From: a virus
Virus record (IMG/VR): IMGVR_UViG_3300033145_002929
Location: 1 to 46,278 of that record
DNA: 46,278 nucleotides
Reading direction: 5' to 3' (one strand)
Position numbers and translations under genes: made by a program. The notes beneath the pieces were generated by a model. It saw only the letters and a program-made list of their open reading frames with translations. It made no database searches and was not told the origin of the DNA. The stretch's first letter is position 1. Every line of letters starts with the position of its first letter. Below, in pieces: positions 4,177 to 34,788 of the stretch.

Positions 4177-4179
4177 TAA

Positions 4180-4252
4180 TCGCAATGCACAGAATCGAAC
4201 TGCGTTCTTAGGCTTATGAGGCCCATGTGTTACGCCATTACACCACACTGCG
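4180..4252 (-). tRNA. tRNA-Met (anticodon CAU)
   Basis: On the minus strand the sequence folds as a complete 73-nt cloverleaf. The acceptor arms are CGCAGTG and CATTGCG with one G-T pair. The D-stem is GTGT/ACAC, the anticodon stem is TGGGC/GCCTA around loop CTCATAA, and the T-arm is CGCAG-TTCGATT-CTGTG. The variable loop has 4 nt, the discriminator is A and no CCA is encoded. The C1-G72 pair is unlike archaeal initiator tRNA (A1-U72), so it is an elongator Met or possibly an Ile2 tRNA with modified C34. It is the last element of the leftward unit. Confidence 0.9.
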
Positions 4253-4292
4253 ATAAAAAAAAAGAAAAAAAGAATTAAAAATTTTAACAAAC

Positions 4293-5562: not shown

Positions 5563-5574
5563 GAGTATATACTC
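5563..5574. promoter_or_regulatory. Copy 2 of AGTATATACT palindrome, upstream of the SSB-wHTH operon
   Basis: GAGTATATACTC, a perfect 12-bp palindrome, overlaps the last codon of the primase gene and lies 69 bases upstream of the SSB-like start at 5494. It contains a TATA-like core, so it could be promoter and operator at once. A further AT-rich stretch (TTAATTAAATTAAATAG on the minus strand) follows towards the gene. Confidence 0.6.
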
Positions 5575-6781
5575 ACTTATAAACCTTACCCTTACACTTT
5601 TCCGAGATATCAATCCCTACCTCTTTTAAGAACTTATGAATGTAGTCACAGGTGAGGGAGTAATTTTTCCCCTTAAATCTATATTCGATTTCAGCTTCTT
5701 TTACTGGAAAATCCATACGAGCATTCCAATCATTGATCACTATTCTTGCCTGAGAGTCCCCTAGAACGCGTCTAAGCTCATTCAGGAGGATAAACATCCC
5801 TCTTTGGAATCCATCCCCAGCTTTTTTAAAATCCTCACTAAGAATCGCCTTTGCACAATTTCTTAATTTATCTGGAGATTTCTCAACACCCCAATCAATT
5901 AATGTTCGATTTCTCTTTCTTATTCTCTCACTTTTTTTCTTTGATGAAATTGATTCAATAAATTCTTCAATAAGCACTTGAATATTATGTGGAGAAGATA
6001 GCCTAATTTCCCCTAATTTAGGATAGATTCTATTTTGCTCATTGCAAACATAAGGAACAAAACTCATATCTTTGTAAGAATATCCTAAAAATGTTTTGTA
6101 ACCTTTTTTATTTTTGCTCAATTCACATCTGATTAAATGTGTGGCCCGAATTAAATCTGTATCAAATTCTTTTGCATTAGTGTCCCAACAAGAGATCATC
6201 TTTGTTCTTAGCCATTCAATAAATTTCCTCTTGAATCTTAATTTGCTGTCACCAAACAAAACTTTTAATTGGTCTTGTACAAGTGAATCTAATTCTTTCA
6301 AACAATTCCAATCAAAGAAAACATGAACATGAACACTCTTATTTCCAGAATAATAATACAATGGTTTGAATCCTTTTTCTTCAATTATTTTTCCAATTAG
6401 TTTTGCAGCATCATAATTTTCTTCATAAGTTGGATAATCAGATTCAATAACTACCTCATTTTTCAAAACACTTCGATGAACATCAATCGCAGCACTTAAT
6501 CCTCCGGTTGAAGAACCAAAATCATTTGTTCGAGTCTGCCATAATAGTCCTGGAAATGCTACCCATTTTGTCCAAAAATTATTAGAAGGATCTCTTAAAG
6601 CAATCTTCAAAGAATCATCTTGATTAATTTCATCTAAATAATAATATCTGTTGCAAGCAATTGAAAGTCCATAGCCACCCTTGTGATAAATCCCTTCATA
6701 AGATTCAGGTTTCATGTAAACATCTCCAAGAACATAATCCCAAATCTCAAAATCTGTTAGTTCCTCTGCAATAAAAGACAT
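5573..6781 (-). CDS. Archaeo-eukaryotic primase (AEP/PriS-like)
   Basis: A 402-aa protein with the three AEP landmarks. An acidic motif is at residues 113-122 (ESDYPTYEEN). The s-x-H motif, SGNKSVHVHVFFDW, is at 145-158. The third motif with basic residues is near 207-227 (DTDLIRATHLIRCELSKN). Such enzymes make primers for DNA synthesis and sometimes also extend DNA. The D-x-D of motif I is a looser E-x-D. The protein sits in a tight minus-strand cluster with the nuclease (1-bp overlap), MCM-like helicase and SSB-like protein, which is the expected setting. The C-terminal 150 residues may be a helical accessory domain. Confidence 0.75.
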   Translation of the reverse strand: MSFIAEELTDFEIWDYVLGDVYMKPESYEGIYHKGGYGLSIACNRYYYLDEINQDDSLKIALRDPSNNFWTKWVAFPGLLWQTRTNDFGSSTGGLSAAIDVHRSVLKNEVVIESDYPTYEENYDAAKLIGKIIEEKGFKPLYYYSGNKSVHVHVFFDWNCLKELDSLVQDQLKVLFGDSKLRFKRKFIEWLRTKMISCWDTNAKEFDTDLIRATHLIRCELSKNKKGYKTFLGYSYKDMSFVPYVCNEQNRIYPKLGEIRLSSPHNIQVLIEEFIESISSKKKSERIRKRNRTLIDWGVEKSPDKLRNCAKAILSEDFKKAGDGFQRGMFILLNELRRVLGDSQARIVINDWNARMDFPVKEAEIEYRFKGKNYSLTCDYIHKFLKEVGIDISEKCKGKVYK

Positions 6782-12426: not shown

Positions 12427-13032
12427 TTATGCGAATATTAATTCGATATCCTCATCATTGTAGTCGCCTTCATCGAACACAACATTTGCTGTAGCAGTTA
12501 TATCTTTCTTGAATCTAGTAGCTTCCCCTTCTTCCAGGGTGTACTTGATCTCAAGTTCAAACACAACTTCTGCAACCTTGTCTTGGTCGGGCTTAAGGCC
12601 TAATTCGATTACGTTAATCTTGTAATCGTCAACATCCACATCTTTCAACTCATCAAATCCTTCTATATTGGCTTCGAGATATTTCTCTAATGCCTTATAG
12701 TCACGATCTTCGAGCTCGATTTCTGCGACGTCGTAAGCTTCAGCTTCGAGTTCTTCGATTTCATCTTCGTACAAATTTTCCCATAAGTCATCAATCCTAT
12801 CCGAATTAACTTCTTTTGGTTCAGGAATTGTAATCGCAGGGATTACAACTTCTGGAATCTCTGCTGCAATCTCAACTGCAGTTGGGATTTCAATTTGTCC
12901 GAGAACTTGGGCGGCAACTTTGTCAGATAATGCTTGTTCATCAACTTGATTTCCTACAACAAGAAACATTGAGACGATGCTCAAAATTCCTACGAGAACA
13001 ATCAAAGTAATTAACAGGTTTTCTTTTTCCAT
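12427..13032 (-). CDS. Membrane-anchored acidic protein
   Basis: A 201-aa protein from the ATG at 13032, preceded by GGAGGTAACA. One N-terminal helix (LLITLIVLVGILSIVSMFLV) is followed by a strongly acidic ectodomain (many Asp/Glu; segments LEAEAYDVAEIELEDRDYKA and KVAEVVFELEIKYTLEEGEA). The predicted topology is a single anchor with an outside or cytoplasmic domain. No family recognised. It stands alone, flanked by T-rich minus-strand stretches on both sides, so it is probably transcribed as a single gene. Confidence 0.6.
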   Translation of the reverse strand: MEKENLLITLIVLVGILSIVSMFLVVGNQVDEQALSDKVAAQVLGQIEIPTAVEIAAEIPEVVIPAITIPEPKEVNSDRIDDLWENLYEDEIEELEAEAYDVAEIELEDRDYKALEKYLEANIEGFDELKDVDVDDYKINVIELGLKPDQDKVAEVVFELEIKYTLEEGEATRFKKDITATANVVFDEGDYNDEDIELIFA

Positions 13033-13191
13033 TGTTACCTCCATATTTAATTGATTCCATAAGGAGTATGTTGCTTTTAAAGTTAATTATTTTAGAAAAG
13101 CCCGTTTAATATATATGGGAGATTTTAAAACAGATATGTAGAAAAGTATAATTGCAAATTGCAAAAAAAAAGAAATAGTAAAAAAAATAAA

Positions 13192-13380
13192 TTAAATTTT
13201 GTTTCCTGCTCGTTTGAGGAGTTTGTTGAGTTCTTCTTCAACCTTTGGTAATTCCGATTGCTCAAAATTGTTTGCTTTCAATCTGTGGTATCTAATCTTA
13301 TCCTTAAGTGCTAATCGCTTCTGCAATAACTTTCTAATTTCTTTCTTCCACGCACCATATAGATAATCTTTAAATACCAT
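13192..13380 (-). CDS. Basic helical hypothetical protein
   Basis: A 62-aa protein from the ATG at 13380 (a TTG at 13389 is possible). It reads MVFKDYLYGAWKKEIRKLLQ, then a basic helix and LPKVEEELNKLLKRAG. It is probably coupled to the upstream 267-aa gene. A poly-A/T tract after the stop may be a terminator. Confidence 0.45.
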   Translation of the reverse strand: MVFKDYLYGAWKKEIRKLLQKRLALKDKIRYHRLKANNFEQSELPKVEEELNKLLKRAGNKI

Positions 13381-13385
13381 TTTAA

Positions 13386-14186
13386 TCAATAATAACTTCC
13401 GTCGTCATCTTCCTCATCTTCATCAAAATCCTCATCATCATCATCTTCACAATCAGAATCATCTTTCTTCTTGTAATAGAATGTTGGAAGTTTCAGAAAT
13501 GAATAAGTTGATTTTAGTTTCTTGAGTTCTTCTTCAAATTCAGACAATCTTTTATCATATTCTTCTTCAGATATAACAATTCTAATTGTAGTTGTGTCTT
13601 GCCTATATCCATAATTATATGATTCTTTGACTTGCCTTTTCAAGTCATCAATCTTTTCCATAATTAAAAGATAACGATTGAAATCATTTTCTTCTTTTTT
13701 GGAAACAACTTTTTGTTGATTAAGAAGTTCTAAAACACTCGCTTTAAATTGAGATAAATCAAAATTTATACTTGCTTCTTCTCCAACTTGGAAATCAATT
13801 TCTTCAAATTCAATTTTGTCCTCTCTAAATTCTGTTAATCCCCAAGAACTAATCTTGTTATCTGATTTTCTATTGTAAGTCAGATATGCTTTGAAGATTG
13901 GAATCACAACATAATTCTGAAGTTTGTCTAAAAACTTTTTGATGTTAATTTTATCTCTATTCCAATAACTTATATCACTCATAAAAGGAAGGTTTGAACT
14001 AACTTCAATTCTCTCTTTTCTTTCTAAGAGATTTCCACTCACAATTTTCTCAACCTTCACAAAAAAAGAAGTTGGAGATTGGAGAGTGATTAAATTCATA
14101 CCTCTATTGTTTTTTTCTAATCGTTCCTCTCGTAATCTCAACTTTTGATATTGCTCATACGCTTGAGTGCTTGTTTGGATTTCCAT
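13386..14186 (-). CDS. Hypothetical protein with acidic C-terminal tail
   Basis: A 267-aa protein from the ATG at 14186; a longer form from 14234 would overlap the next gene by 47 bases. The first 200 residues are mixed alpha/beta (MNLITLQSPTSFFVKVEKIV, YVVIPIFKAYLTYN). The last 25 are almost all Asp/Glu (SDCEDDDDEDFDEDEEDDD). Acidic tails of this kind occur on single-strand DNA-binding and histone-chaperone-like proteins. It follows the AAA+ ATPase cluster. Function unknown. Confidence 0.5.
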   Translation of the reverse strand: MEIQTSTQAYEQYQKLRLREERLEKNNRGMNLITLQSPTSFFVKVEKIVSGNLLERKERIEVSSNLPFMSDISYWNRDKINIKKFLDKLQNYVVIPIFKAYLTYNRKSDNKISSWGLTEFREDKIEFEEIDFQVGEEASINFDLSQFKASVLELLNQQKVVSKKEENDFNRYLLIMEKIDDLKRQVKESYNYGYRQDTTTIRIVISEEEYDKRLSEFEEELKKLKSTYSFLKLPTFYYKKKDDSDCEDDDDEDFDEDEEDDDGSYY

Positions 14187-14187
14187 T

Positions 14188-14574
14188 TTAATCTTTTTCC
14201 TTCCTGTCTGTTTTAGGCAAAGGACTAACAACAACTATTGTATCTTTTACTTGGATAAATAATTCTTTGTTATTATCTTCGGAGATAATCATCTCTCCCT
14301 CGCTACCAACCAAATCAAGTGCTTCCTTAAGTTGCTTAACATTGTATCGGACATATTCTTTTCCATTAAACCTCGCTTGAGTAATCAATAGTTTTGTTAG
14401 AGTGCTATCTCCAACTGAAATACTTTCTTCGTTGCACTTCACTTTGAATTTTTCTGCTAAAGAATTATCATCAAGCATATTGTCTGCTGAAAATTTCCTA
14501 ACCCATTTCAATAATGTCAAGTTATTAAGAAGATTCTTAATAAAATCATTACTCGGTTTTTTTGTTTTTTCCAT
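14188..14574 (-). CDS. Hypothetical protein, faintly sliding-clamp-like
   Basis: A 128-aa protein. The stretch EKFKVKCNEESISVGDSTLTK, then YNVKQLKEALDLVGSEGEM and ELFIQVKDTIVVVSPLP, resembles the alternating strands of a sliding clamp subdomain with a closing V-V-V-S-P-L-P. At half the length of PCNA it would need to assemble differently. The resemblance is weak and seen by eye only. It overlaps the AAA+ gene by 26 bases, a partner arrangement that would fit a clamp and its loader but also many others. Confidence 0.4.
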   Translation of the reverse strand: MEKTKKPSNDFIKNLLNNLTLLKWVRKFSADNMLDDNSLAEKFKVKCNEESISVGDSTLTKLLITQARFNGKEYVRYNVKQLKEALDLVGSEGEMIISEDNNKELFIQVKDTIVVVSPLPKTDRKEKD

Positions 14575-15601
14575 TATTTTTACCCCCTTTCAATTCTGTA
14601 TTAGTGTCAACATCAGTTTTTGATGACACTTTGACACTCATTTCTTTTTTAGTTCTAAAGAATGTTCTTCGGCTTCTGCCTGTTAATTCTATGAACAAAA
14701 GAATTTGAGTTTTCACAACATCAGATTTTGTGATGACTTTGAGATATGCTTGTTTCAACTCATCAGTTTCTGTTGTTGCTCGGAATAAATCTATTGCTTT
14801 TTTCTTATTGTATTGAACAAAAGCAATTAGTTTTTTCAAAGTTCTGAAATTAAAATCTCTCGTTGCTTCTGTAACCTCATCAACCAAGATTTTCAGAATA
14901 TTTTTTCTATCCATATCGGAGAGAGTTTTATCATCAGCAACAAAATCCTTACAGATTTTCATCTTCTGATTGAAAGAGAAAGACATCTTGTAAAAGATAG
15001 TTCTTGAAATCATTGCTCTTGTTGAAGCGTCGTTCTCTTTTGGAATGTGATTACATAAGATAATTATGTTTGCTTTCATCACAAACTTTTCTGGATATTT
15101 TGCTTTGTCGCTTGTTGAAGAATATTGACAGATTCTTTTTCCGTCGCTATCCCACAAAGCACCTTTGAGGATTGCAAGAGATAATTTGTTGTTGAAGATT
15201 CCCTCAACATCATCAAGAATAATTGCTTTCTTATCCCTATTGTTGTAGAGAAATCCATAGAGAGAAAGGGGTGTGGTATATCCATTAGAATATTCCCACT
15301 CGTTAGGTTTCAAAATCTTTTTTATAGATGAGAGAGTTAGAATTGTTTTTCCTATCCCCCCTTCTCCTGTGAAAATAAGTCCTTCATAATGTTTTGTTTG
15401 CAATACGCATTTCAAAAGTTCGTTGGGAGTTTTAAATTCCTCAATGATTGTGTGTTCTTTGTTATCACTTTTCCAATCCTCAAGTTCTTTCTCATCTTCC
15501 TTCTCCTCTTTGGTTTTCAAATCTGCAATCTTTCCTGTGATTTTTAAACCACTCTCCTTCGCTGTATCTTCCAATAATTGTTTTAGTTTTTCTTTATCCA
15601 T
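14549..15601 (-). CDS. AAA+ / P-loop ATPase
   Basis: A 350-aa protein. It has Walker A GEGGIGKT (about residues 79-86), Walker B AIILDDVEG (about 125-133), a sensor-like IIILCNHIP (about 178-186) and SRTIFYKMSF further on. The layout resembles phage and plasmid replication ATPases and small helicase or DNA-remodelling proteins. The N-terminal 60 residues are charged and helical. The neighbouring small membrane protein and ParB-like gene suggest replication or segregation, but no substrate can be deduced. Confidence 0.6.
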   Translation of the reverse strand: MDKEKLKQLLEDTAKESGLKITGKIADLKTKEEKEDEKELEDWKSDNKEHTIIEEFKTPNELLKCVLQTKHYEGLIFTGEGGIGKTILTLSSIKKILKPNEWEYSNGYTTPLSLYGFLYNNRDKKAIILDDVEGIFNNKLSLAILKGALWDSDGKRICQYSSTSDKAKYPEKFVMKANIIILCNHIPKENDASTRAMISRTIFYKMSFSFNQKMKICKDFVADDKTLSDMDRKNILKILVDEVTEATRDFNFRTLKKLIAFVQYNKKKAIDLFRATTETDELKQAYLKVITKSDVVKTQILLFIELTGRSRRTFFRTKKEMSVKVSSKTDVDTNTELKGGKNNGKNKKTE

Positions 15602-15832: not shown

Positions 15833-17014
15833 TTAAATTACTTCAACCCCCAAAACTTTTAGTTTAACCCTCGCTGATTTCCCTCTTGGGATATTAAGTT
15901 CTTTTGAAATTTCCATAGGAAAAGTAAATCTTCTTTCGTGCTTTGATTGGATTCCATTCTTAATCGGAGAACGAACTGCAACCTCAAAAGGAAAAATCTT
16001 TTTATTGATTTCTTGAATCCCTTTGTCTGCAAGTTTTTCTTTTATTCTATGCCTAACTAAAAACAATTCCTTATCTAATTCTTGCATAGAAATAATAAAC
16101 TCCTCGCCTTCCAAAGTTTCTTCTAACTGCCTTAATGTATCAATGCTAAAACTTCTTAATCTTGAAGATAATCTTTTGCAATCACTTGCAAGTTCATCAA
16201 CTTTGTCCATTTGATTTTTTATCTTCGGTAAATGATTATATTTTTTCTCAACACCTTTCCATTCTCCCTTATCAATTTTTTCTTTGTAGAGATTCACAAG
16301 TGCCTGTAATCTTTTTTGATTAGTTCCTTTCAATGCTCTCTCAAATAAATATTTTTGATAGTTGTTATCTTCAACCCTCACTAATTGTTCTGCTTGAGAA
16401 ATTGTTATCTTTCCGTCGGTGTTGTAACCTCTCTTTTTGAAAGCCAATTCTTTTTGAATATATTTTGGAAGTTTTAGAATCTGCAAATAAATAACTGCTG
16501 TGTTTTCTGTGATGTTAATCTCTCTCAAGATTTTCTTCACAATAAAAATATCATTCTCTTTGAATCCTGTAATTCTATGCTTGAAAACTTTTACTCTTGT
16601 CCTTCCCTCATAGTTTTTCAAACAATGAATCAAATAAGTCATTCTATCAACATCATCTTTTGTGCCTTTAATCTGCGACATCAAAAGTTTTATTGATAAT
16701 CCTTTTTCTATCGGTGTCAAGTCCTCTCTAACTAAATTCTCGTGAACTAAATCAATAATCAATTCGCTGTTGACTTGCCTTTCCTTAACAATACAGGGGA
16801 TTGTTTTTCTTCTCAAACTCTTGAACGCCTTTAATCGTCGGTGTCCACTTATTACAATGAAGCCACCATTTTCTTTGAGAACACTAATCGGATTAATCAA
16901 ACCTCTTTGCATTATGCTTTGAATCAACGCACTCAATGGCTCTTTCTTCATCTCCATTCTTATTTGATATGGATTGTCTTTGATTTTTATTACTTCAACT
17001 TCTTGTAGTTTCAT
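15833..17014 (-). CDS. ParB-like nuclease/partition-domain protein with C-terminal AbrB-like domain
   Basis: A 393-aa protein. The N-terminus is a ParB/Srx fold: EVIKIKDNPYQIR, LSALIQSIMQRGLINPISV, and FIVISGHRRLKAFKSL, the G-H-R-R box that binds CTP in ParB proteins. LVHENLVREDLTPIEKG (box 3 of ParB-type proteins) follows, then a long HTH and coiled-coil region. The last 33 residues (RFTFPMEISKELNIPRGKSA) match the SpoVT/AbrB swapped-hairpin pattern P-x-E-I-x-x-x-L-x-I-x-x-G. No ParA is encoded, so it is more likely a regulator or nucleoid protein than a partition motor partner. The domain fusion is unusual as far as I know. Confidence 0.65.
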   Translation of the reverse strand: MKLQEVEVIKIKDNPYQIRMEMKKEPLSALIQSIMQRGLINPISVLKENGGFIVISGHRRLKAFKSLRRKTIPCIVKERQVNSELIIDLVHENLVREDLTPIEKGLSIKLLMSQIKGTKDDVDRMTYLIHCLKNYEGRTRVKVFKHRITGFKENDIFIVKKILREINITENTAVIYLQILKLPKYIQKELAFKKRGYNTDGKITISQAEQLVRVEDNNYQKYLFERALKGTNQKRLQALVNLYKEKIDKGEWKGVEKKYNHLPKIKNQMDKVDELASDCKRLSSRLRSFSIDTLRQLEETLEGEEFIISMQELDKELFLVRHRIKEKLADKGIQEINKKIFPFEVAVRSPIKNGIQSKHERRFTFPMEISKELNIPRGKSARVKLKVLGVEVI

Positions 17015-20930: not shown

Positions 20931-21130
20931 AAAAAGAAAATTATGAAGCTTGGATGAGAGAGCAGAATAAAAACTTGCAAAAGCAAGGAGTGAGAATTAT
21001 GCCTCCAGTCTGTGCTGAATGCGGAGAGCCGATGATCAATGCAGTTGATTCTATCACAAAAAAAATTAGCAAATATCTCTGGAAAACAAATTGCGCGCAT
21101 GCAAAGAAATTGAGGTTGAGCATAGGATGA
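20921..21130 (+). CDS. Small Cys-containing protein
   Basis: A 69-aa protein with PPVCAECGEPM and a later CAHAKK. C-x-x-C plus Cys/His near the end can hold one zinc. A helical N-terminus precedes it. It overlaps both neighbours. Function unknown. Confidence 0.5.
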   Translation: MFMKKENYEAWMREQNKNLQKQGVRIMPPVCAECGEPMINAVDSITKKISKYLWKTNCAHAKKLRLSIG

Positions 21131-21567
21131 TGATTATTGATTCAAGGGAGCAAAAGCCTTTGTGGAATCCAAAAAGATTTAAGGTGAAAGTTATGAAATT
21201 AGACGAGGGCGATTATACAATCGATTCTCTTTTGAATAAAGCCCATGCTGAAAGAAAGTCCGGGATTGATCTTTATGGGAGTTTAATTCAAAATCACAAG
21301 AGGTTTTCTGCAGAAATTCAAAGAGCAATAGAAAAGGATCTCTCTTTTGCTGTTTTTGTTGAATGTACTGAAAAAACGTTTGTTTCAAAAAGATTCAATG
21401 GAGGATGCAGATTGCAAGTAAAACCTGCAGTTTTAGCGAAAATTGTTAAGACTTTCACAAGCAGATACCCGATTCAATTTTTTTGGTGCAGGGATAGAGA
21501 AGATTTAAAGAATAAAATGTGTCTTTGGTTTGTTCATCAGATGGAAGAACTCGGAGTTAAAAACTAA
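21127..21567 (+). CDS. ERCC4-type nuclease
   Basis: A 146-aa protein from the ATG at 21127, which overlaps the preceding stop. MMIIDSREQKPLWNPKRF, then LDEGDYTID, AERKSGIDLYGSLIQN and RFSAEIQRA follow the ERCC4/XPF nuclease core (D-x-R-E, G-D-Y, E-R-K-x-x-x-D). XPF-family nucleases cut flap or fork DNA. The archaeal-style core without helicase or HhH domain suggests a stand-alone nuclease. The late-module position suggests genome processing, though a recombination role is equally likely. Confidence 0.75.
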   Translation: MMIIDSREQKPLWNPKRFKVKVMKLDEGDYTIDSLLNKAHAERKSGIDLYGSLIQNHKRFSAEIQRAIEKDLSFAVFVECTEKTFVSKRFNGGCRLQVKPAVLAKIVKTFTSRYPIQFFWCRDREDLKNKMCLWFVHQMEELGVKN

Positions 21568-24759: not shown

Positions 24760-25132
24760 AAACGCTTCTTTTGTTCCCTTAGAATCTCACGACACCGAAA
24801 AGTTTAAATATAATATTTGGCTCAAAGTTAGTAAGTACATCAATGATAAATTTGTCGTATTGAGGACTACTTGCAATAAAATTATCCAGAAGCCAAGCTT
24901 GTGGGTTCAAGAAGTTGATTTTAAAGCAATTAGGAACGATACATCAATGTGGGTTGTTGAAGCCTTAATCGAAGGTTTTGTAATCAACTTTGTTGTGTGG
25001 GCCTTGATAGGGTGGGAGTTCAACCTCATCACAATGTTGGCATGGGGATTTGCGCTGAAGCAATCATTGAGTATTTATCGGAGAATAACAAAAGATGGTT
25101 CAAATACAACAATACCTAAAAAGGACAAATGA
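24701..25132 (+). CDS. Membrane protein upstream of portal
   Basis: A 143-aa protein from the ATG at 24701, with AGGGAGG just before. Two hydrophobic stretches near residues 85-120 (EGFVINFVVWALIGW and FNLITMLAWGFAL). It overlaps the gene before by 59 bases and the portal gene by 38 bases. The role is unknown; a membrane protein in the capsid module is unusual. Confidence 0.5.
   Translation: MMKAIKKEIKQSSLIHQRIRNASFVPLESHDTEKFKYNIWLKVSKYINDKFVVLRTTCNKIIQKPSLWVQEVDFKAIRNDTSMWVVEALIEGFVINFVVWALIGWEFNLITMLAWGFALKQSLSIYRRITKDGSNTTIPKKDK
24794..24812 (+). promoter_or_regulatory. Possible internal promoter ahead of portal/capsid genes
   Basis: ACCGAAAAGTTTAAATATA has a BRE-like CGAAAAG and a TATA-like TTTAAATA inside gene 24701. 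It could give extra transcripts for the portal-capsid block. It may also be coincidental in AT-rich coding DNA. Confidence 0.25.
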
Positions 25133-26561
25133 TTTTCAGCAGTCAAAGCATCTCCCTCTTTTAAATTCGCTTTTTATTGAAAGGTTTTCTGAATTCAATC
25201 CTTATGCTAAGGACAATGATTTTAAAAATTTTATGAAGTGGGCGAGGAGATCTCCTCAGTTAATGGGGTTCTTAGGAATTATAGCGACGGATATGATAAG
25301 TGATAATATTGATTTTGCTCCACTCGATAAATCTTCTGGGCGAAATAAGGTGATGAAAGCAAAAGCATTTTGGGAAATGAATGATGGTATGGATTTGGCT
25401 GAGGAAACAATTTATGATTTATTGATCAACGGGATTGGTTATAATTGGCTTGGAAAAATTAATGAAACTCAGTTAAAAGAATTCTGTGAACTTGCTGTAA
25501 GAGAAGTAATGCCTGAACTTAAGGCTAAAGAATTAGAGTATAAAGCAGATCACATGGTGAAATTAATTAGCAAAGATAGTCCTGAAAAAATGGTTAAAAA
25601 ATTGAGACATATTGCTGCGAGTACAATGTCAATCCACACTGATGAGTATGAAGTCTTAAAATATATTCAAAGAGTTGGAGTCAATACAAAAAAATTCTCT
25701 CCTGATGAAATTCTTGTTTTTAAATTAATGCCTTTCGATGGGAAAGTTTTTCCTTTTCCTCCAATGGAAGCTATTCTTTCTGAAATTTATTTGCTTTGGT
25801 TGATCACTCAAAACTATGTTTCTTTTTTTGAAAATGGTGGGAAGCCAGACAATGTTTTTATTTTGCCTAAAGAACTTGCAGGGAGCAAGAATCATAAATA
25901 TCTAATTGATACTCTTACAAAATATAAAAAGATTCAGAACAAGCATGGAAATCTTGTTTTCACTGGAGATCTAAATATTGAAAAATTAATGGAAATTGAA
26001 CATCAGATGGAGAACAAAGATTTAGGATTATATCTTACAAGTGTTCTTGCAATGATGTATGGGGTTCCTGTAAATAGGATTCCTTTTTTGGTTGGAAAAG
26101 CTGCAGCAGGCGGAGATTCAGGAGGACTTGCAGACACTGGTTATTGGAGAAAGATAAGTGTTTGGCAAAGTAAACTTGAAGCAACTTATAATCGTGATCT
26201 TTGGATTCCTCATTTTGGGGTAGAGATGAAATTCAGGAGAGGATATCTCCAGGATGAAGTTAGGGAAACTCAAAACGCAATGCAAATGACTTCTGTTGCT
26301 GAGCAAAGATTAAGGCTTGGGTTATGGACTGTTGAGGAAGCAGGAGATTATTTACATATCGATGAGGATGTAATCAGAGAAGCTCAACTTCAAAAAAAGA
26401 AAAGAGATGAAGAAGAAATGAAATCAAATATGCTTAATCAAAATTTGAATACAAATGACAATGTTCAAAAAAATCAAGATGCAAAACTTAAAGCAAAAAA
26501 GAAACAAGATACTCAAAATAAAAATCAACAAAATAAAGGGGGCAAGCAAATAAATCCTTGA
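25095..26561 (+). CDS. Portal protein
   Basis: A 488-aa protein. The order of blocks is typical of HK97-type portals: WARRSPQLMGFLGIIATDMI near the start, LLINGIGYNWLG, then DEILVFKLMPFDGKVFPFPP, IYLLWLITQNYVSFFENG, and YGVPVNRIPFLVG near residue 325, followed by an ETQNAMQMTS-type helical stem. The C-terminal 70 residues are Lys/Gln-rich and disordered. It forms the dodecameric channel at one capsid vertex. It lies between TerL and the capsid protein as expected. Confidence 0.8.
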   Translation: MVQIQQYLKRTNDFQQSKHLPLLNSLFIERFSEFNPYAKDNDFKNFMKWARRSPQLMGFLGIIATDMISDNIDFAPLDKSSGRNKVMKAKAFWEMNDGMDLAEETIYDLLINGIGYNWLGKINETQLKEFCELAVREVMPELKAKELEYKADHMVKLISKDSPEKMVKKLRHIAASTMSIHTDEYEVLKYIQRVGVNTKKFSPDEILVFKLMPFDGKVFPFPPMEAILSEIYLLWLITQNYVSFFENGGKPDNVFILPKELAGSKNHKYLIDTLTKYKKIQNKHGNLVFTGDLNIEKLMEIEHQMENKDLGLYLTSVLAMMYGVPVNRIPFLVGKAAAGGDSGGLADTGYWRKISVWQSKLEATYNRDLWIPHFGVEMKFRRGYLQDEVRETQNAMQMTSVAEQRLRLGLWTVEEAGDYLHIDEDVIREAQLQKKKRDEEEMKSNMLNQNLNTNDNVQKNQDAKLKAKKKQDTQNKNQQNKGGKQINP

Positions 26562-26568
26562 AATTAAA

Positions 26569-28788
26569 ATGCCAAAACATCAAGACTTTGTAAAAATTTA
26601 TAATCGATTCACGAAACAGTATAAGAGTAAGGGTGAGAGTTTGTATTCTGCTTGGTTGGAGAAAAAAAGTTATGACGATACAAAAGCCTTTCCGAAGGGA
26701 AAAGAGAAAAAAGAATTTATGTGTTCTGTGATTGGGATAGAAGTAAAAGAACAAGAAGGTTGTTTTCATATTGAAGGATTAATTGCAACAACTCATGTTG
26801 ATGATTTGGATAGAGAGGAAGGAGTAGATATTCCTGATAGAATTCCTAAAGAAACTTTAGAAAGTTTTGCTGTGCAAATGAATGCTAGTAAAGAATCTCG
26901 AGTTATGGGAGTTCATCACAGTGAGGGCCATCCTTATATTCCTGAATATTTTGGTGAAGCAGATGTTGAAAATCATCCTGTGAGGGTGATCCAATTAACT
27001 GATGGAGAACATGGTTTATTTGTTGATACAAAATTATTAAAAAATGATCCTGCAACTCCAGGAATCATCCAAGCTTTTCAAGAAGGAGATCTTGATTCAT
27101 TTTCCATAACCTACGATACCGACGGGTTTATGACAACTGACTTCGACTGGGTTGGAGACAACCTTGTTAGAGTTCTCTTGCCGGCTACTCGTCTTGCGGG
27201 TTATACCGCAGCGAGTAATCCGAAGAATCCCAATGCTGTTGCTACAGCGTATGGATTCAAGGAATTCAAGGAGTTAGTTGGAGTGGAAACAATTAAATTA
27301 AAGGAGGTTAAAAAAATGGATAAAAAAGAAGTTAAAGAAGTTGAAGAGGATAAAGCTTCGGAGTCTGTTGCGAAACCTTCTTCTGAAGAAGAGAAGAGTC
27401 AACCTGAAGAGGCTGGTTCTGACAAACCTTCAAATAAACCTGAAGGTATATCAGAAGAAGAAGCGACTGAACAAAAAGAATTTCGTAAGTACAAGGCTGA
27501 AAAAAAAGAGCTTGAAGAAAAAGAGCTTTTAGATAAAACAGCTGGAAAAATTGCGGATGGAGTTCTTGGTAAGATGGAATTGAAAGAAAAAGTATTGAAA
27601 GACAATTCCCCATCTAACAAGGATGCCGAAGTCTCTCTCGAACTTAAGGAGTTTAGGGAAGTAATTAATAGCCCTGGAAAACTTGAATTGAAAGAACAAT
27701 TCCGAAGAGCAGCTGCATTAAGTGAATCTATTAAATTAGATTGGCAATCAGCAACTACATCTGCTGCTGAAAGCAGAGAGTACAAAAGCTTTGGAGTTAA
27801 AGGAACAAATTTAGAGTTTAAAGGACTAGGAATTGATACAAACCAGAATACAGACACAGATTATCTTCAGAGTTCTGCGGAACTACAAGATGTTTATGAT
27901 CCTGTAATCTATAATGCTCTAAACCAGCAAACTCTTACTTGGAATCTTTTAGCTAAGGACGACTATAGCAAAAAAGGAAATAACCAAGTTCAGTTTACCC
28001 TTAAGATTGCGGCTAATACAAGTGCATCTTTCTATACTGGAAATGCTGTTGCATCTGATAATGTAACAAGATTAAAATATCAAACGAAGTTCAAGAAACT
28101 TCAAGTTGGTGTTTCAGTTGATGGAGACATGATTGCTGCTGCTCGTGGAGGTCCTGTTAGTGATGTGTTTGCACAAGAAGTAATGGATTCGACAATGGAT
28201 ATGATGGCTGTTCTTAATCTAGCTCTGTTCGCAGAAGTTGGATTGGAAACTGTTGCAGGTCCAATTGGATTTGAGTACATAACAGACAGTGCAGGAAACA
28301 CAACTCTATATAACTTGACAAGAAGTACAACAAATAAGTTGGCACCAGATTCTGCAGGAGACACCTATATAAACCAGAGCTCAACAGTCATTTCGATGAC
28401 TAATTTGAGAGCTGCGATTAGACAGGCTGTTCTTGAGAATGCACAAAAAAGGAATTTGGTATTTATCACAGCACCAACCCAAGGGGATATGATGCGTGGT
28501 AAGTTTGATGATAGCAGAAGAATGCTAACAGCAAAAGATACTGATTTTGGTTTTAGTACAGATCTTTTCGTTGATGGAATCCCTGTTTTTGAAGACAAGG
28601 ATTGTAACACTGACGATTGGTGGCTTGTTGATTTAGAAACACATAGAGTAGCTGTATGGATTCCGCCTACAATAGAGAAACTTGGTAAGACTGCTGATAG
28701 CGAAGACGCTTTCATCAAGACTTATCTTGCAACCTATAATCGGGCTCCGAGACGTATGGTTCAGATCTACGGCTGTGCTACTTCGTAG
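26569..28788 (+). CDS. Fused prohead protease - scaffold - major capsid protein (HK97 fold)
   Basis: A 739-aa protein in three parts. Residues 50-230 look like an S78-type prohead protease: FHIEGLIATTHVDD, GVHHSEGHP (candidate catalytic His116/117) and GDLDSFSITYD (candidate Ser179), then TAASNPKNPNAV. Residues 250-380 are a charged helical scaffold-like region. Residues 385-739 read as an HK97-fold capsid protein (KLQVGVSVDGDMIAAARGGP, FITAPTQGDMMRG and a closing APRRMVQIYGCATS). The first ATG has no good ribosome site. An in-frame ATG at 27316 (codon 250) has a perfect GGAGG. The likely outcome is a rare full-length fusion plus an abundant 490-aa scaffold-capsid product that the protease trims. 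It could also be a recent loss of a stop codon. Confidence 0.8.
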   Translation: MPKHQDFVKIYNRFTKQYKSKGESLYSAWLEKKSYDDTKAFPKGKEKKEFMCSVIGIEVKEQEGCFHIEGLIATTHVDDLDREEGVDIPDRIPKETLESFAVQMNASKESRVMGVHHSEGHPYIPEYFGEADVENHPVRVIQLTDGEHGLFVDTKLLKNDPATPGIIQAFQEGDLDSFSITYDTDGFMTTDFDWVGDNLVRVLLPATRLAGYTAASNPKNPNAVATAYGFKEFKELVGVETIKLKEVKKMDKKEVKEVEEDKASESVAKPSSEEEKSQPEEAGSDKPSNKPEGISEEEATEQKEFRKYKAEKKELEEKELLDKTAGKIADGVLGKMELKEKVLKDNSPSNKDAEVSLELKEFREVINSPGKLELKEQFRRAAALSESIKLDWQSATTSAAESREYKSFGVKGTNLEFKGLGIDTNQNTDTDYLQSSAELQDVYDPVIYNALNQQTLTWNLLAKDDYSKKGNNQVQFTLKIAANTSASFYTGNAVASDNVTRLKYQTKFKKLQVGVSVDGDMIAAARGGPVSDVFAQEVMDSTMDMMAVLNLALFAEVGLETVAGPIGFEYITDSAGNTTLYNLTRSTTNKLAPDSAGDTYINQSSTVISMTNLRAAIRQAVLENAQKRNLVFITAPTQGDMMRGKFDDSRRMLTAKDTDFGFSTDLFVDGIPVFEDKDCNTDDWWLVDLETHRVAVWIPPTIEKLGKTADSEDAFIKTYLATYNRAPRRMVQIYGCATS
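27291..27318 (+). promoter_or_regulatory. Internal ribosome binding site and start for the scaffold-capsid product
   Basis: AATTAAATTAAAGGAGGTTA lies at 27291-27310, then AAAAAATG, with ATG at 27316 in frame with the protease. The same 21 bases (27291-27311) recur at 33147-33167 before the tail-tube gene. GGAGG is 8 bases from the ATG, an ideal spacing. Confidence 0.7.
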
Positions 28789-28908: not shown

Positions 28909-28956
28909 ATGAAAAAAATACAATGCTCCGAGAATAGAACATGGCTTCAGCAATAA
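28909..28956 (+). other. 15-codon leader ORF overlapping gene 28941
   Basis: AAGGAG at 28897-28902 precedes the ATG at 28909, giving MKKIQCSENRTWLQQ and a TAA at 28954-28956. The larger gene starts inside it at 28941 in another frame with only a weak ribosome site. This looks like coupled re-initiation. It may be a chance ORF. Confidence 0.35.
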
Positions 28957-29252
28957 CACCAAGTGTTGTTCAGAAGACTTACGTCCCAAGTACAGGTATG
29001 ACTGGAACACCAATGAGATTGGTGAAATATACTTACAAAGGGACTAAGGCAGCTGACGCAGATTGGATTGTTACTGGAACTTACATGCAAAGTGGAACCC
29101 CTTTATTTTGGAATGCCTGCACTATTGATAGTAGTAGCGACGGTGTTACAGAAGCGACTGTGGGTTGTTCGTATGTGAATACAGGAACAAAGTTGACTTT
29201 CTCTGGCGGAACTACTGGCACCGTTTACGGTGAAGTTTGGTTTGAGGAATAA
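28941..29252 (+). CDS. Capsid-accessory protein A1 (tandem paralog)
   Basis: A 103-aa beta-rich protein: ITPSVVQKTYVPSTGMTGTP, then RLVKYTYKGTKAADADWIVT, and CSYVNTGTKLTFSGGTTGTV, with WFEE at the end. The next gene is a clear duplicate. Small beta proteins encoded right after the capsid gene are often decoration (cementing) proteins. Function by position only. Confidence 0.55.
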   Translation: MASAITPSVVQKTYVPSTGMTGTPMRLVKYTYKGTKAADADWIVTGTYMQSGTPLFWNACTIDSSSDGVTEATVGCSYVNTGTKLTFSGGTTGTVYGEVWFEE

Positions 29253-29254
29253 GA

Positions 29255-29569
29255 ATGACAGCAACTGAAATTACACCAAGTATTGTTCAGAAAACTTATG
29301 CCCATTCGACAAGTTCGACTGGAACGCCAATGAGATTGGTTAAGTATGTTTTCAAGGTGACAAAAGCTTATGCGGATGATTGGATAGTTACGGCGGATTA
29401 TTTTCAAAGTGGAACTCCTATCTATTGGAATGCATGTGTGATTGATTCAAGTTCTAATGGTGCACAAGAGTGTACTACGGGCTTGACTTATACGTCTTCA
29501 GGGACGCTATTAACATTTGAACATGCTTCTGTTGGAACTGTGACCGGAGAAATCTGGTATGAGGAATAA
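29255..29569 (+). CDS. Capsid-accessory protein A2 (tandem paralog)
   Basis: A 104-aa protein sharing with A1 the blocks ITPSIVQKTY, TGTPMRLVKY, DDWIV, FQSGTPIYWNACVIDSSS and EIWYEE. The two genes are 2 bases apart. The pair arose by tandem duplication and has diverged in loops, so both copies are probably used, perhaps at different capsid positions. Confidence 0.6.
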   Translation: MTATEITPSIVQKTYAHSTSSTGTPMRLVKYVFKVTKAYADDWIVTADYFQSGTPIYWNACVIDSSSNGAQECTTGLTYTSSGTLLTFEHASVGTVTGEIWYEE

Positions 29570-29571
29570 GA

Positions 29572-29829
29572 ATGACAGATGCAACTGTAACAACTAGATT
29601 GGATGTGAATAACCCGACTGAGGAAGTTGTTGTTTTGACTTGTACCGATGGATATACTTATACAAGTAAGAAATTTAGTACAGTCACTGCTGCTAGTGCA
29701 ACTTTAATGGAAGATACTGCTACTTTAAGCATTCCATTATCTTTAGCAATTAGTGGATCAACAATAACTGTTCATTGCACAGGGTTGAGCGCTCAATTAA
29801 TTTGCTTGACTCTCTACGGGAGAAAGTAG
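29572..29829 (+). CDS. Capsid-accessory protein B1 (tandem paralog)
   Basis: An 85-aa protein with VVVLTCTDGYTYTSKKFSTV, IPLSLAISGSTITVHCTG and LICLTLYGRK. Small beta-sandwich-like. A second copy follows after 1 base. Likely virion decoration or a minor structural protein. Confidence 0.55.
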   Translation: MTDATVTTRLDVNNPTEEVVVLTCTDGYTYTSKKFSTVTAASATLMEDTATLSIPLSLAISGSTITVHCTGLSAQLICLTLYGRK

Positions 29830-29830
29830 A

Positions 29831-30088
29831 ATGGTCGCTGCAACAATCACAACTGTGATTAATATCAATGATCCTGTGAAAGAAGTCGTAGTATTAACCT
29901 TTAGCGACGGAGAAACTTATGTAAGTAAGAAATTCGGAGCTATCGTAGCGGCTCAGGCCACACTAAACCAGGACACTGGAGCTTTAACATATCCGGTATC
30001 TTTAGCGATTAGTGGTGGGACTGTCACAATACATTGTGAAGGTGTATCCGATAAAAAAGTTTGCTTAACTCTTTACGGAAAAAGGTAA
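29831..30088 (+). CDS. Capsid-accessory protein B2 (tandem paralog)
   Basis: An 85-aa copy of B1: EVVVLTFSDGETYVSKKFGA, YPVSLAISGGTVTIHCEG and KVCLTLYGKR. Same length and strand pattern, with many substitutions. The Cys of the shared HC motif is conserved. Confidence 0.6.
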   Translation: MVAATITTVININDPVKEVVVLTFSDGETYVSKKFGAIVAAQATLNQDTGALTYPVSLAISGGTVTIHCEGVSDKKVCLTLYGKR

Positions 30089-32940: not shown

Positions 32941-33177
32941 ATGGAAAAAGAAAAAAAATACAAAGTTACTAACAAAGCAAAAGATGTTAGGAAATTTAGA
33001 GATGGATTTCTTGGAAAAGATATTCTTGTTGGCCCAAACAAATTCATACTCACTGACCACCCTCCAGAAGAGAGTGAAATCTGGAAGGTAGAAACTGTTG
33101 AACAGCTGGAAAAGATACCCGAGAACAAAAAGAGTTCTCACAAAAAAATTAAATTAAAGGAGGTTAATAAAAAATGA
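32941..33177 (+). CDS. Hypothetical protein before tail tube
   Basis: A 78-aa protein. KVTNKAKDVRKFRDGFLGKD, then ILVGPNKFILTDHPPEESEI, and a Lys-rich tail IKLKEVNKK. The tail is encoded by the same 21-base stretch that ends the protease part of the capsid fusion (IKLKEVKK). Common phage type with unknown role. Confidence 0.5.
   Translation: MEKEKKYKVTNKAKDVRKFRDGFLGKDILVGPNKFILTDHPPEESEIWKVETVEQLEKIPENKKSSHKKIKLKEVNKK
33147..33176 (+). promoter_or_regulatory. Strong ribosome binding site of the tail-tube gene
   Basis: AATTAAATTAAAGGAGGTTA at 33147-33166 is identical to the internal capsid RBS at 27291. It precedes the ATG at 33174 by 7 bases and lies inside the end of the preceding gene. 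Sharing between the two most abundant virion proteins suggests selection for high translation, or gene copying. Confidence 0.6.
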
Positions 33178-33785
33178 CAGCAGCAGCAGTAGATGATGCA
33201 TGGATGGAAACTTGTTTAATTGCAGTATCAATACAAGCAGGTAGTGATATACAATTTGCAGGCGTTACAGAAACTGTTGATTTCGATATTGGAGAAAAAG
33301 ATATTGAAGGAGTCCCTCTCGTTAATGGTGGAAGAGTTACAAAATTCACACCTGAAGGAGATTCGTCAATTACTTTTGAAGCATACCCATTGCAAGCTGG
33401 AACTGATACAGGCGCAGTTGGATTAGGTTTTTACGACTTGATGCATAGCGTTGATTCATCAGTACCTATTCGGGTTACAAATGATCGAGATAGGGATAAG
33501 TATAGGGTTTTAGTTCTTTGGACTAATGATCCTTCACCGACAACAGCACAATCTGTAATCGCAGAGAATTACTCAGCGTTCAGAATTGGCATGGCTGATG
33601 GCCATTTTACAAGTGCGAAACCAAGTTTCACAGACGGGATTTTAAAATTCACTGTGACTTACAAGTGTGCAGCATTTGATAAATCAGGCGCAGGCAATGT
33701 AATGATGGAGAGTTGTGCAGGTTCAAGTGGATCTGATATCTTACCCGCAGTAGCATCCTATACGTCGTCGGCTAAATTCGATTAA
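33174..33785 (+). CDS. Major tail (tube) protein 1
   Basis: A 203-aa protein. AWMETCLIAVSIQAGSDIQF, then FDIGEKDIEGVPLVNGGRVT and KFTPEGDSSITFEAYPLQAG are typical of siphovirus tube proteins, with a closing domain KPSFTDGILKFTVTYKCAAF. It forms the non-contractile tube. A paralog follows immediately. Confidence 0.7.
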   Translation: MTAAAVDDAWMETCLIAVSIQAGSDIQFAGVTETVDFDIGEKDIEGVPLVNGGRVTKFTPEGDSSITFEAYPLQAGTDTGAVGLGFYDLMHSVDSSVPIRVTNDRDRDKYRVLVLWTNDPSPTTAQSVIAENYSAFRIGMADGHFTSAKPSFTDGILKFTVTYKCAAFDKSGAGNVMMESCAGSSGSDILPAVASYTSSAKFD

Positions 33786-33786
33786 A

Positions 33787-34788
33787 ATGGCAGATGACGC
33801 ATGGATGGAGACAGCCCTTATCGGCATATCCATTATAGGATCAGAGGAAGTGCAATTTAACTCAATAGTTGAGACAGCAGATTTTGATGTTGGAGAAAAA
33901 GATATCGAAGGGCTTGCGCTAGTGAATGGGGGACGTGTTACAAAACATACTCCCGAGGGAGATTCTTCAGTTACTTTTGAAGTTTATCCTATGGAAGCTG
34001 GAGCAGGCGAAGGATTCTTTGACTTGTTACATGGAAATGGAGATATTGTTTCTGGAACAGCGACTGGAACGAATGCAAATGACTTGATAGATTCAAGTGT
34101 AGATTTTGTAGTTCTAGGAGTTAAGGTTGGGGATAGAATCACCAACGTGACAGATACAACTTATGCAACAGTCACAGCAATTGAGGATGCAAATACTTTA
34201 TCAGTTTCTGCAGATGTTTTCGCATCAGCAGATGAATATACAATTACTCGAGGAGTGAGAATTGTTAATGGTACAACTGATGGAACAACTTCAGGAAAGC
34301 TTGTTGATTCCGGAGAAACTTTTACAAACAGAATTGCAGTTGGAGATTCGGTTAGAAACACAACTGATAATACTGAAGCAAAAGTAACAGCGATTGATGA
34401 TGCAAACACTTTATCTCTATCAGCGAATATAATGACGTCTGGAGAAGATTACATTATTTCTGAGTCACCACAGAGAGTGATCAATAATAGAGTTAGAGAA
34501 AAAGCAAGAATCCTTGTTCTTTGGACTGATAAAACAGCACCCGTGAAAGCGAGTGAAGCAATTGCAAACAGCCTAAATGCGTTTAGAATGGGATATGCGA
34601 ATGGACATTTTTCAAGTGTTAAACCGAGTTTTACAGACGGTGCCTTGAAGTTTACCGTTACATACAAGTGCGCGGCTTTTAGTAAAAGTGGCGACTCGAA
34701 TGTGATGATGGAAAGTTGTGCAGCAGGTGGAGGCTCAGATGCCTTACCCGTAATAGCCGATTACACAACTTCAAATACATTCGGCTAA
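33787..34788 (+). CDS. Major tail protein 2 with inserted tandem domain
   Basis: A 333-aa paralog of tail protein 1, clearly alignable on both sides (FDVGEKDIEGLALVNGGRVT; KPSFTDGALKFTVTYKCAAF). About 140 residues are inserted at 87-226, where protein 1 has a short loop. The insert has two similar units of about 70 residues (VTAIEDANTLSVSAD at 129-143, VTAIDDANTLSLSAN at 200-214). It starts with the next codon after the TAA of gene 1 plus one base. The insert may be an exposed domain on the tail surface, or this may be a specialised tube-tip protein. Confidence 0.7.
   Translation: MADDAWMETALIGISIIGSEEVQFNSIVETADFDVGEKDIEGLALVNGGRVTKHTPEGDSSVTFEVYPMEAGAGEGFFDLLHGNGDIVSGTATGTNANDLIDSSVDFVVLGVKVGDRITNVTDTTYATVTAIEDANTLSVSADVFASADEYTITRGVRIVNGTTDGTTSGKLVDSGETFTNRIAVGDSVRNTTDNTEAKVTAIDDANTLSLSANIMTSGEDYIISESPQRVINNRVREKARILVLWTDKTAPVKASEAIANSLNAFRMGYANGHFSSVKPSFTDGALKFTVTYKCAAFSKSGDSNVMMESCAAGGGSDALPVIADYTTSNTFG

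Follow-up and report, generated by a model that had tools for sequence, protein, structure and literature searches.

A fused protease, scaffold and capsid gene with a conserved internal start in an uncultured virus, probably of DPANN archaea

Organisation of the fused head gene

The viral DNA analysed here, IMG/VR record IMGVR_UViG_3300033145_002929 over its full 46,278 nucleotides (the window), carries a portal gene on the plus strand (25095–26561, stop codon 26559–26561; Pfam Phage_portal, 3e-11) followed on the same strand by a single open reading frame of 739 amino acids (26569–28788). Its extent was as given in the preliminary description, and the sequence reads through to a stop codon at 28786–28788. 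Behind a short N-terminal module the frame contains three parts, a prohead protease fold, a charged scaffold region and a capsid protein of the SU10/HK97 type, all in phase with one another and located downstream from the portal gene.

The N-terminal module (residues 1–55; 26569–26733) is the most variable element, and alignments showed that it is kept among near relatives and swapped or missing elsewhere. Unrelated modules replace this segment of about 45–55 amino acids at loci L009, L012 and L013 and it is absent from L010, L015 and L016.

Right behind the capsid gene lie two adjacent pairs of paralogous small genes, 28941/29255 (28941–29569) and 29572/29831 (29572–30088), which perhaps encode decoration proteins; their order and copy number differ among relatives, with an alternating ABAB arrangement in L011 (7295–8513). 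Further downstream, the genes at 33174–33785 and 33787–34788 have a segment of about 86 amino acids in common, with cross-matches in L013, L015, L016 and L027. One of the two may represent an extended copy of its neighbour and, possibly, both encode tail tube proteins.

The protease domain

The protease part, about residues 56–220 (26734–27228), was modelled with AF2 at a pLDDT of 72, and a BFVD fold search with the model yielded prohead or head-maturation proteases with probability 1.00 and E values down to 1e-8. There were 100 matches at E ≤ 1e-3, of which the top named ones were mostly head-maturation proteases, and residues 45–220 fold as such an enzyme by this comparison; a fold search of the PDB gave no significant match. 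At the sequence level the window protein stays below the curated cut-offs of the caudovirus prohead protease profiles (Peptidase_S78/TIGR01543, COG3740). TIGR01543 matched the N-terminal part at 3e-4 with 21 bits against a cut-off of 59, and PF04586 (Peptidase_S78) scored 16.4 bits against 21 (domain alone), with a weak match to the latter family in 8 of 17 members.

A candidate His116 or His117 and Ser179 had been put forward earlier as catalytic residues. H117 (26917–26919) and S179 (27103–27105) are invariant among 17 relatives, in His-then-Ser order, and remain the candidates, while H116 has been dropped. Alignment by hhalign pairs them with H65 and S114 of HK97 gp4, in a weak alignment with a probability of only 33%. 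Given the fold matches and the invariant H117 and S179, we regard about residues 56–220, on the basis of the model, as a divergent prohead protease.

The scaffold and capsid regions

Residues 250–418 (27316–27822) constitute the putative scaffold which, from the alignment and a low-confidence model, appears to be charged and mostly helical. It leads into the predicted mature major capsid protein, from G419 onwards (27823–28785). The HK97-type capsid end that had been noted beforehand is supported by SU10_MCP (PF17236), which matched the C-terminal part with 27.7 bits, above its curated cut-off of 24.1, and is matched by 16 of 17 family members at E ≤ 0.01; NF033394 (phage major capsid) gave 1e-13, below that model's cut-off. 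The structure model of this part is weak (pLDDT 49), and the identity of the capsid protein therefore rests on the sequence families. BFVD matches of the model were nevertheless major capsid proteins (best E 5.5e-11), including HK97-type proteins of the archaeal viruses HCTV-2 and HSTV-1. No sequence similarity was detectable when the capsid profile was compared with HK97 gp5 using hhalign.

A repeated motif and predicted cleavage sites

A four-residue motif, hEhK, where h is V, I, L, F, M, Y or C, recurs right before the protease core, at up to four places within the scaffold and at the boundary of scaffold and capsid. In the window it occurs as IEVK directly before the protease core (residues 57–60; 26737–26748), where E58, K60 and E61 are invariant in the alignments, as MELK (336–339; 27574–27585) and twice as LELK (357–360; 27637–27648 and 372–375; 27682–27693) in the scaffold, and as LEFK (415–418; 27811–27822) at the boundary. 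The boundary form among relatives is LE[FY]K/[GS]LG, where the slash marks the predicted cut, and that of the window is LEFK/GLG. The scaffolds of the window and 16 other loci contain 55 copies of hEhK against 5.3 expected, and those of divergent members contain 12 against 1.7, although the L045 scaffold has none. The motif occurs once in 5,194 amino acids of capsid cores and seven times in 10,211 amino acids of other window proteins.

HK97 gp5 is cleaved at K103/S104 (PMC10275583), in the context FNK/SLG, which parallels the boundary motif. We lean slightly towards the view, based on these sequence patterns, that the protease itself cleaves after the hEhK lysine, which would both leave a mature capsid protein beginning at G419 and free the protease from the N-terminal module.

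Conservation of the fusion

Two scans yielded 17 contigs on which this fused protein is likewise encoded, at 45–86% identity, and a scan based on the terminase (TerL) added the divergent fused members L043, L045, L047, L050 and L054. Three relatives lie on contigs of metagenome-assembled genomes (MAGs), two of which, L032 (Ca. Parvarchaeota) and L033 (Ca. Woesearchaeota), came from the TerL alignment scan while the third, L088 (same phylum), came from a phylum survey. L002 and L005 appear to hold identical sequence, and the set comprises 24 non-redundant loci besides the window, from independent metagenomes and assemblies. Some loci are incomplete: L032 and L033 are truncated, the latter before the junction between protease and capsid parts, and in L007 the capsid part is missing its end. 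A search for relatives with the same fusion, recommended beforehand, thus gave a uniform picture, in that no stop codon separates the two parts in the 24 loci wherever the junction is present and all relatives found that match in both protease and capsid are fused, none being split. A scan of the genome collection with the fusion alignment gave nothing, and tblastn of the full protein against the phage collection detected no homologues in isolated phages.

In most distant TerL relatives (L055–L063) the protease gene is separate, with about 245–275 amino acids, and where examined it is followed by another gene, with a scaffold-like gene further on. This suggests that the fusion arose by joining of neighbouring genes. 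At L016 (6583–6873), and likewise at L048, the stretch from the protease to the junction start is longer by about 97 codons, and this insert is flanked on each side by a candidate start preceded by a Shine-Dalgarno (SD) motif.

Two starts in one frame

The first ATG, at 26569, had been described as lacking a clear ribosome site, and the calculation bears this out, with an SD pairing energy of −0.9 kcal/mol, 7 nt beyond the portal stop. Given that many late genes of the window do use SD motifs, this absence is notable. In 11 relatives the first start lies 1–12 nt beyond the portal stop or overlaps it by 4 nt, and it is without a good SD at all loci except L009 and L012; in L012 it overlaps the portal stop. 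With the portal stop so close, this start may rely on ribosomes that re-initiate once the portal has been translated. At L009 the SD of the first start is equally strong as that at the junction, and the ratio of products may therefore differ there. L027 and L054 have GTG or ATT in place of ATG as the first start. In L054 (reverse strand, 12894–15002) an ATT occupies the position of the first ATG and the frame offers no ATG, GTG or TTG further upstream, a hint that the start of its long form is very weak.

The junction presents a different picture. Positions 27300–27318 read aAAGGAGGTtaaaaaaATG, in which an 8-base SD, AAGGAGGT (27301–27308), precedes by 7 nt an in-frame ATG (27316–27318; Met250 of the long form) that would open a scaffold-capsid protein of 490 amino acids; the perfect spacing noted previously was confirmed. 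The gene has, within its frame, a second start served by an SD of its own, as in nested-start genes of the lambda C/Nu3 type. In the window this SD is the best of the 16 in-frame ATGs ranked, at −12.9 kcal/mol against −7.4 for the next. By its SD the junction start likewise outranks every other in-frame ATG in 20 of the 23 ranked loci, where 1.7 would be expected, and it comes second or third in the remainder; L088, tested apart, ranks second. The motif is weaker in L012, L016, L047 and L088, the spacing is mostly 7–8 nt across loci, and in L043 the start is a GTG preceded by AAGGAGG.

Linkers rich in K and E produce SD-like strings by chance. In 16 of 17 aligned loci, however, codon −4 of the junction start is a GAG with a G after it, although GAG is the minority Glu codon in each of these genes (9–47%); the product over 12 lineages is 1.5e-7, beyond what chance would give. 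Synonymous shuffling of single loci gave only weak significance (P 0.02–0.6), because encoding K-E-V already favours codons that look like an SD, and it is therefore the pooled tests that carry the argument. Under a stricter rule, by which the first ATG behind the protease is taken, the signal was lower yet significant (P ≤ 1e-5 in the window's family); this rule is too crude, its anchor pattern having failed in several loci.

Proposed expression and assembly, and alternative explanations

The strong conservation of the second start makes it very likely that the gene yields two products, and we consider it probable, from the sequence comparisons, that one gene with two in-frame starts supplies few protease-bearing and many protease-free shell proteins. 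Rare initiation at 26569, at a weak start that is probably linked to termination of the portal gene, would produce the full-length protein and frequent initiation at the strong start at 27316 the 490-residue form. The two would coassemble via their common scaffold and capsid parts, so that every procapsid would unavoidably take up a small, fixed proportion of protease. Once the procapsid is assembled, the enzyme would cut at the hEhK sites, freeing itself from the N-terminal module, shredding the scaffold and trimming the capsid protein to a start at about G419.

An alternative is that only the 739-residue form is made, as a polyprotein with one protease per capsid subunit which cleaves itself while the internal SD and ATG go unused. 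The single open frame is compatible with this and the cleavage motifs would be enough to part the pieces. However, such a scheme does not explain a Met or GTG conserved at exact SD spacing, the GAG bias, or the coexistence of an SD-less first start with the best SD of the gene at the junction in most ranked loci. It would also, by a rough estimate, add about 47 kDa per subunit and so burden the procapsid far more than the 103-residue scaffold domain and sparse protease of HK97 do, and we consider it improbable. SD-like strings can slow ribosomes, and this one sits directly behind the protease domain, where a translational pause might aid folding of that domain; yet a pause requires no start codon and one is found, including the GTG, at a near-constant distance wherever the junction is present, such that a pausing role without initiation appears very improbable.

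The joining of neighbouring genes inferred from L055–L063 is likely to be the true origin of the fusion, and after loss of a stop codon the former capsid-gene start could linger unused. That the start is such a relic is nevertheless a slender prospect, given that both the SD and the start have been kept in relatives with terminases only about 30% identical, while the surrounding linker residues have changed. Finally, the contigs are metagenomic, and an assembly or sequencing error could in principle have joined two genes, but the identical frame recurs in separately assembled contigs, at protein identities as low as about 45% and below. With all 24 loci fused, the split-gene or artefact explanation was rejected as having a negligible chance of being correct. 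The two conditions named beforehand as refuting the original reading, a stop codon between the parts in related genomes and a region at residues 50–230 that is not a protease, both turned out in its favour, and that reading is supported.

Relation to other head maturation systems

Fusion of protease and capsid genes is, in itself, already known. Archaeal head-tail elements with a protease fused to the major capsid protein include the thaumarchaeal proviruses Nvie-Pro1, NCAV2-Pro1 and NitIsl-Pro1 (PMC6563490). These belong to a different archaeal phylum, the protease of Nvie-Pro1 is chymotrypsin-like, and the accessible text of that report mentions no internal start. Protease-capsid fusions have also been published for actinophages (PMC5513430) and three-part fusions of protease, scaffold and capsid for small siphoviruses (PMC7302621). 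The actinophage examples, the small phages of Microbacterium cluster EE, Arthrobacter AN, Gordonia GMA5 and Rhodococcus RRH1 and the larger AM, AU and EL phages, resemble the window in having all three parts in one gene after the portal gene, but they have bacterial hosts and, in the accessible accounts, are described just as fusions (PMC5513430, PMC7302621). Common descent with the window protein was undetectable by tblastn of the full protein against phages, which gave no match to them. Full-text searches of the open-licence literature turned up no paper that describes an internal start in such a protease-capsid fusion.

The window shares with HK97 gp4/gp5 a prohead protease and an N-terminal scaffold domain on the capsid protein, which in HK97 is cut at K103/S104 in a K/SLG context, whereas in HK97 the protease has a separate gene and the capsid sequences show no detectable similarity. 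In lambda C/Nu3, Mu I/Z and herpesvirus UL26/UL26.5, a long protease-scaffold product is accompanied by an abundant shorter in-frame product with the same scaffold, but there the capsid protein is separate and the herpesvirus uses a nested transcript with no internal SD. The design of the window gene joins the HK97 logic, with the scaffold on the capsid protein, to the nested shorter product of lambda and herpesviruses.

Among 21 known fusion genes of the actinophage type, counting Adaia and Hadban, near-identical at the junction, once, an SD-preceded junction ATG was found in 19. Its SD was the best in the gene in 12, where roughly three would be expected, and second in seven; SallySpecial and EricDab lack it and KylieMac/Maggie are weak. 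Under the first-ATG rule P was 0.0014. The junction ATG was chosen by eye, and BurtonThePup, Camille and Count were likewise read by eye from the listing, and this evidence is therefore weaker. Bacterial phage genes of this kind thus seem to hide the same second start, less strikingly, and from the junction counts and the first-ATG result the internal start looks general in protease-capsid fusions. There is a reasonable, if modest, case for a convergent rule extending across the fusion genes of archaeal and bacterial tailed viruses. Were it to hold, two products at a set ratio would be predicted for many genes whose annotation reads as a single "major capsid and protease fusion protein", on the principle of the protease/scaffold gene of herpesviruses. 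The window gene also bears on a general assembly question, namely how a tailed virus controls the amount of a destructive protease within its closed shell: the proposed answer is that the dose is set by the ratio of two starts on one mRNA and that incorporation is guaranteed through the fusion.

Probable host

The virus probably infects DPANN archaea, a view based on the relatives in the three MAGs, one named Parvarchaeota, one Woesearchaeota and one of the same phylum, together with a weak match, below cut-off, to the small subunit of archaeal-type DNA primase (5573–6781, minus strand) and an ERCC4 nuclease domain (21091–21567, plus strand). The primase and ERCC4 matches, together with a ParB-like protein (15833–17014, minus strand), are features of an archaeal virus; it is possible that the MAG relatives are free viral contigs that were co-binned. 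For this uncultured virus group, hEhK provides a concrete candidate cleavage motif. The virus also carries a tRNA-Met (CAT) gene at 4179–4253 on the minus strand.
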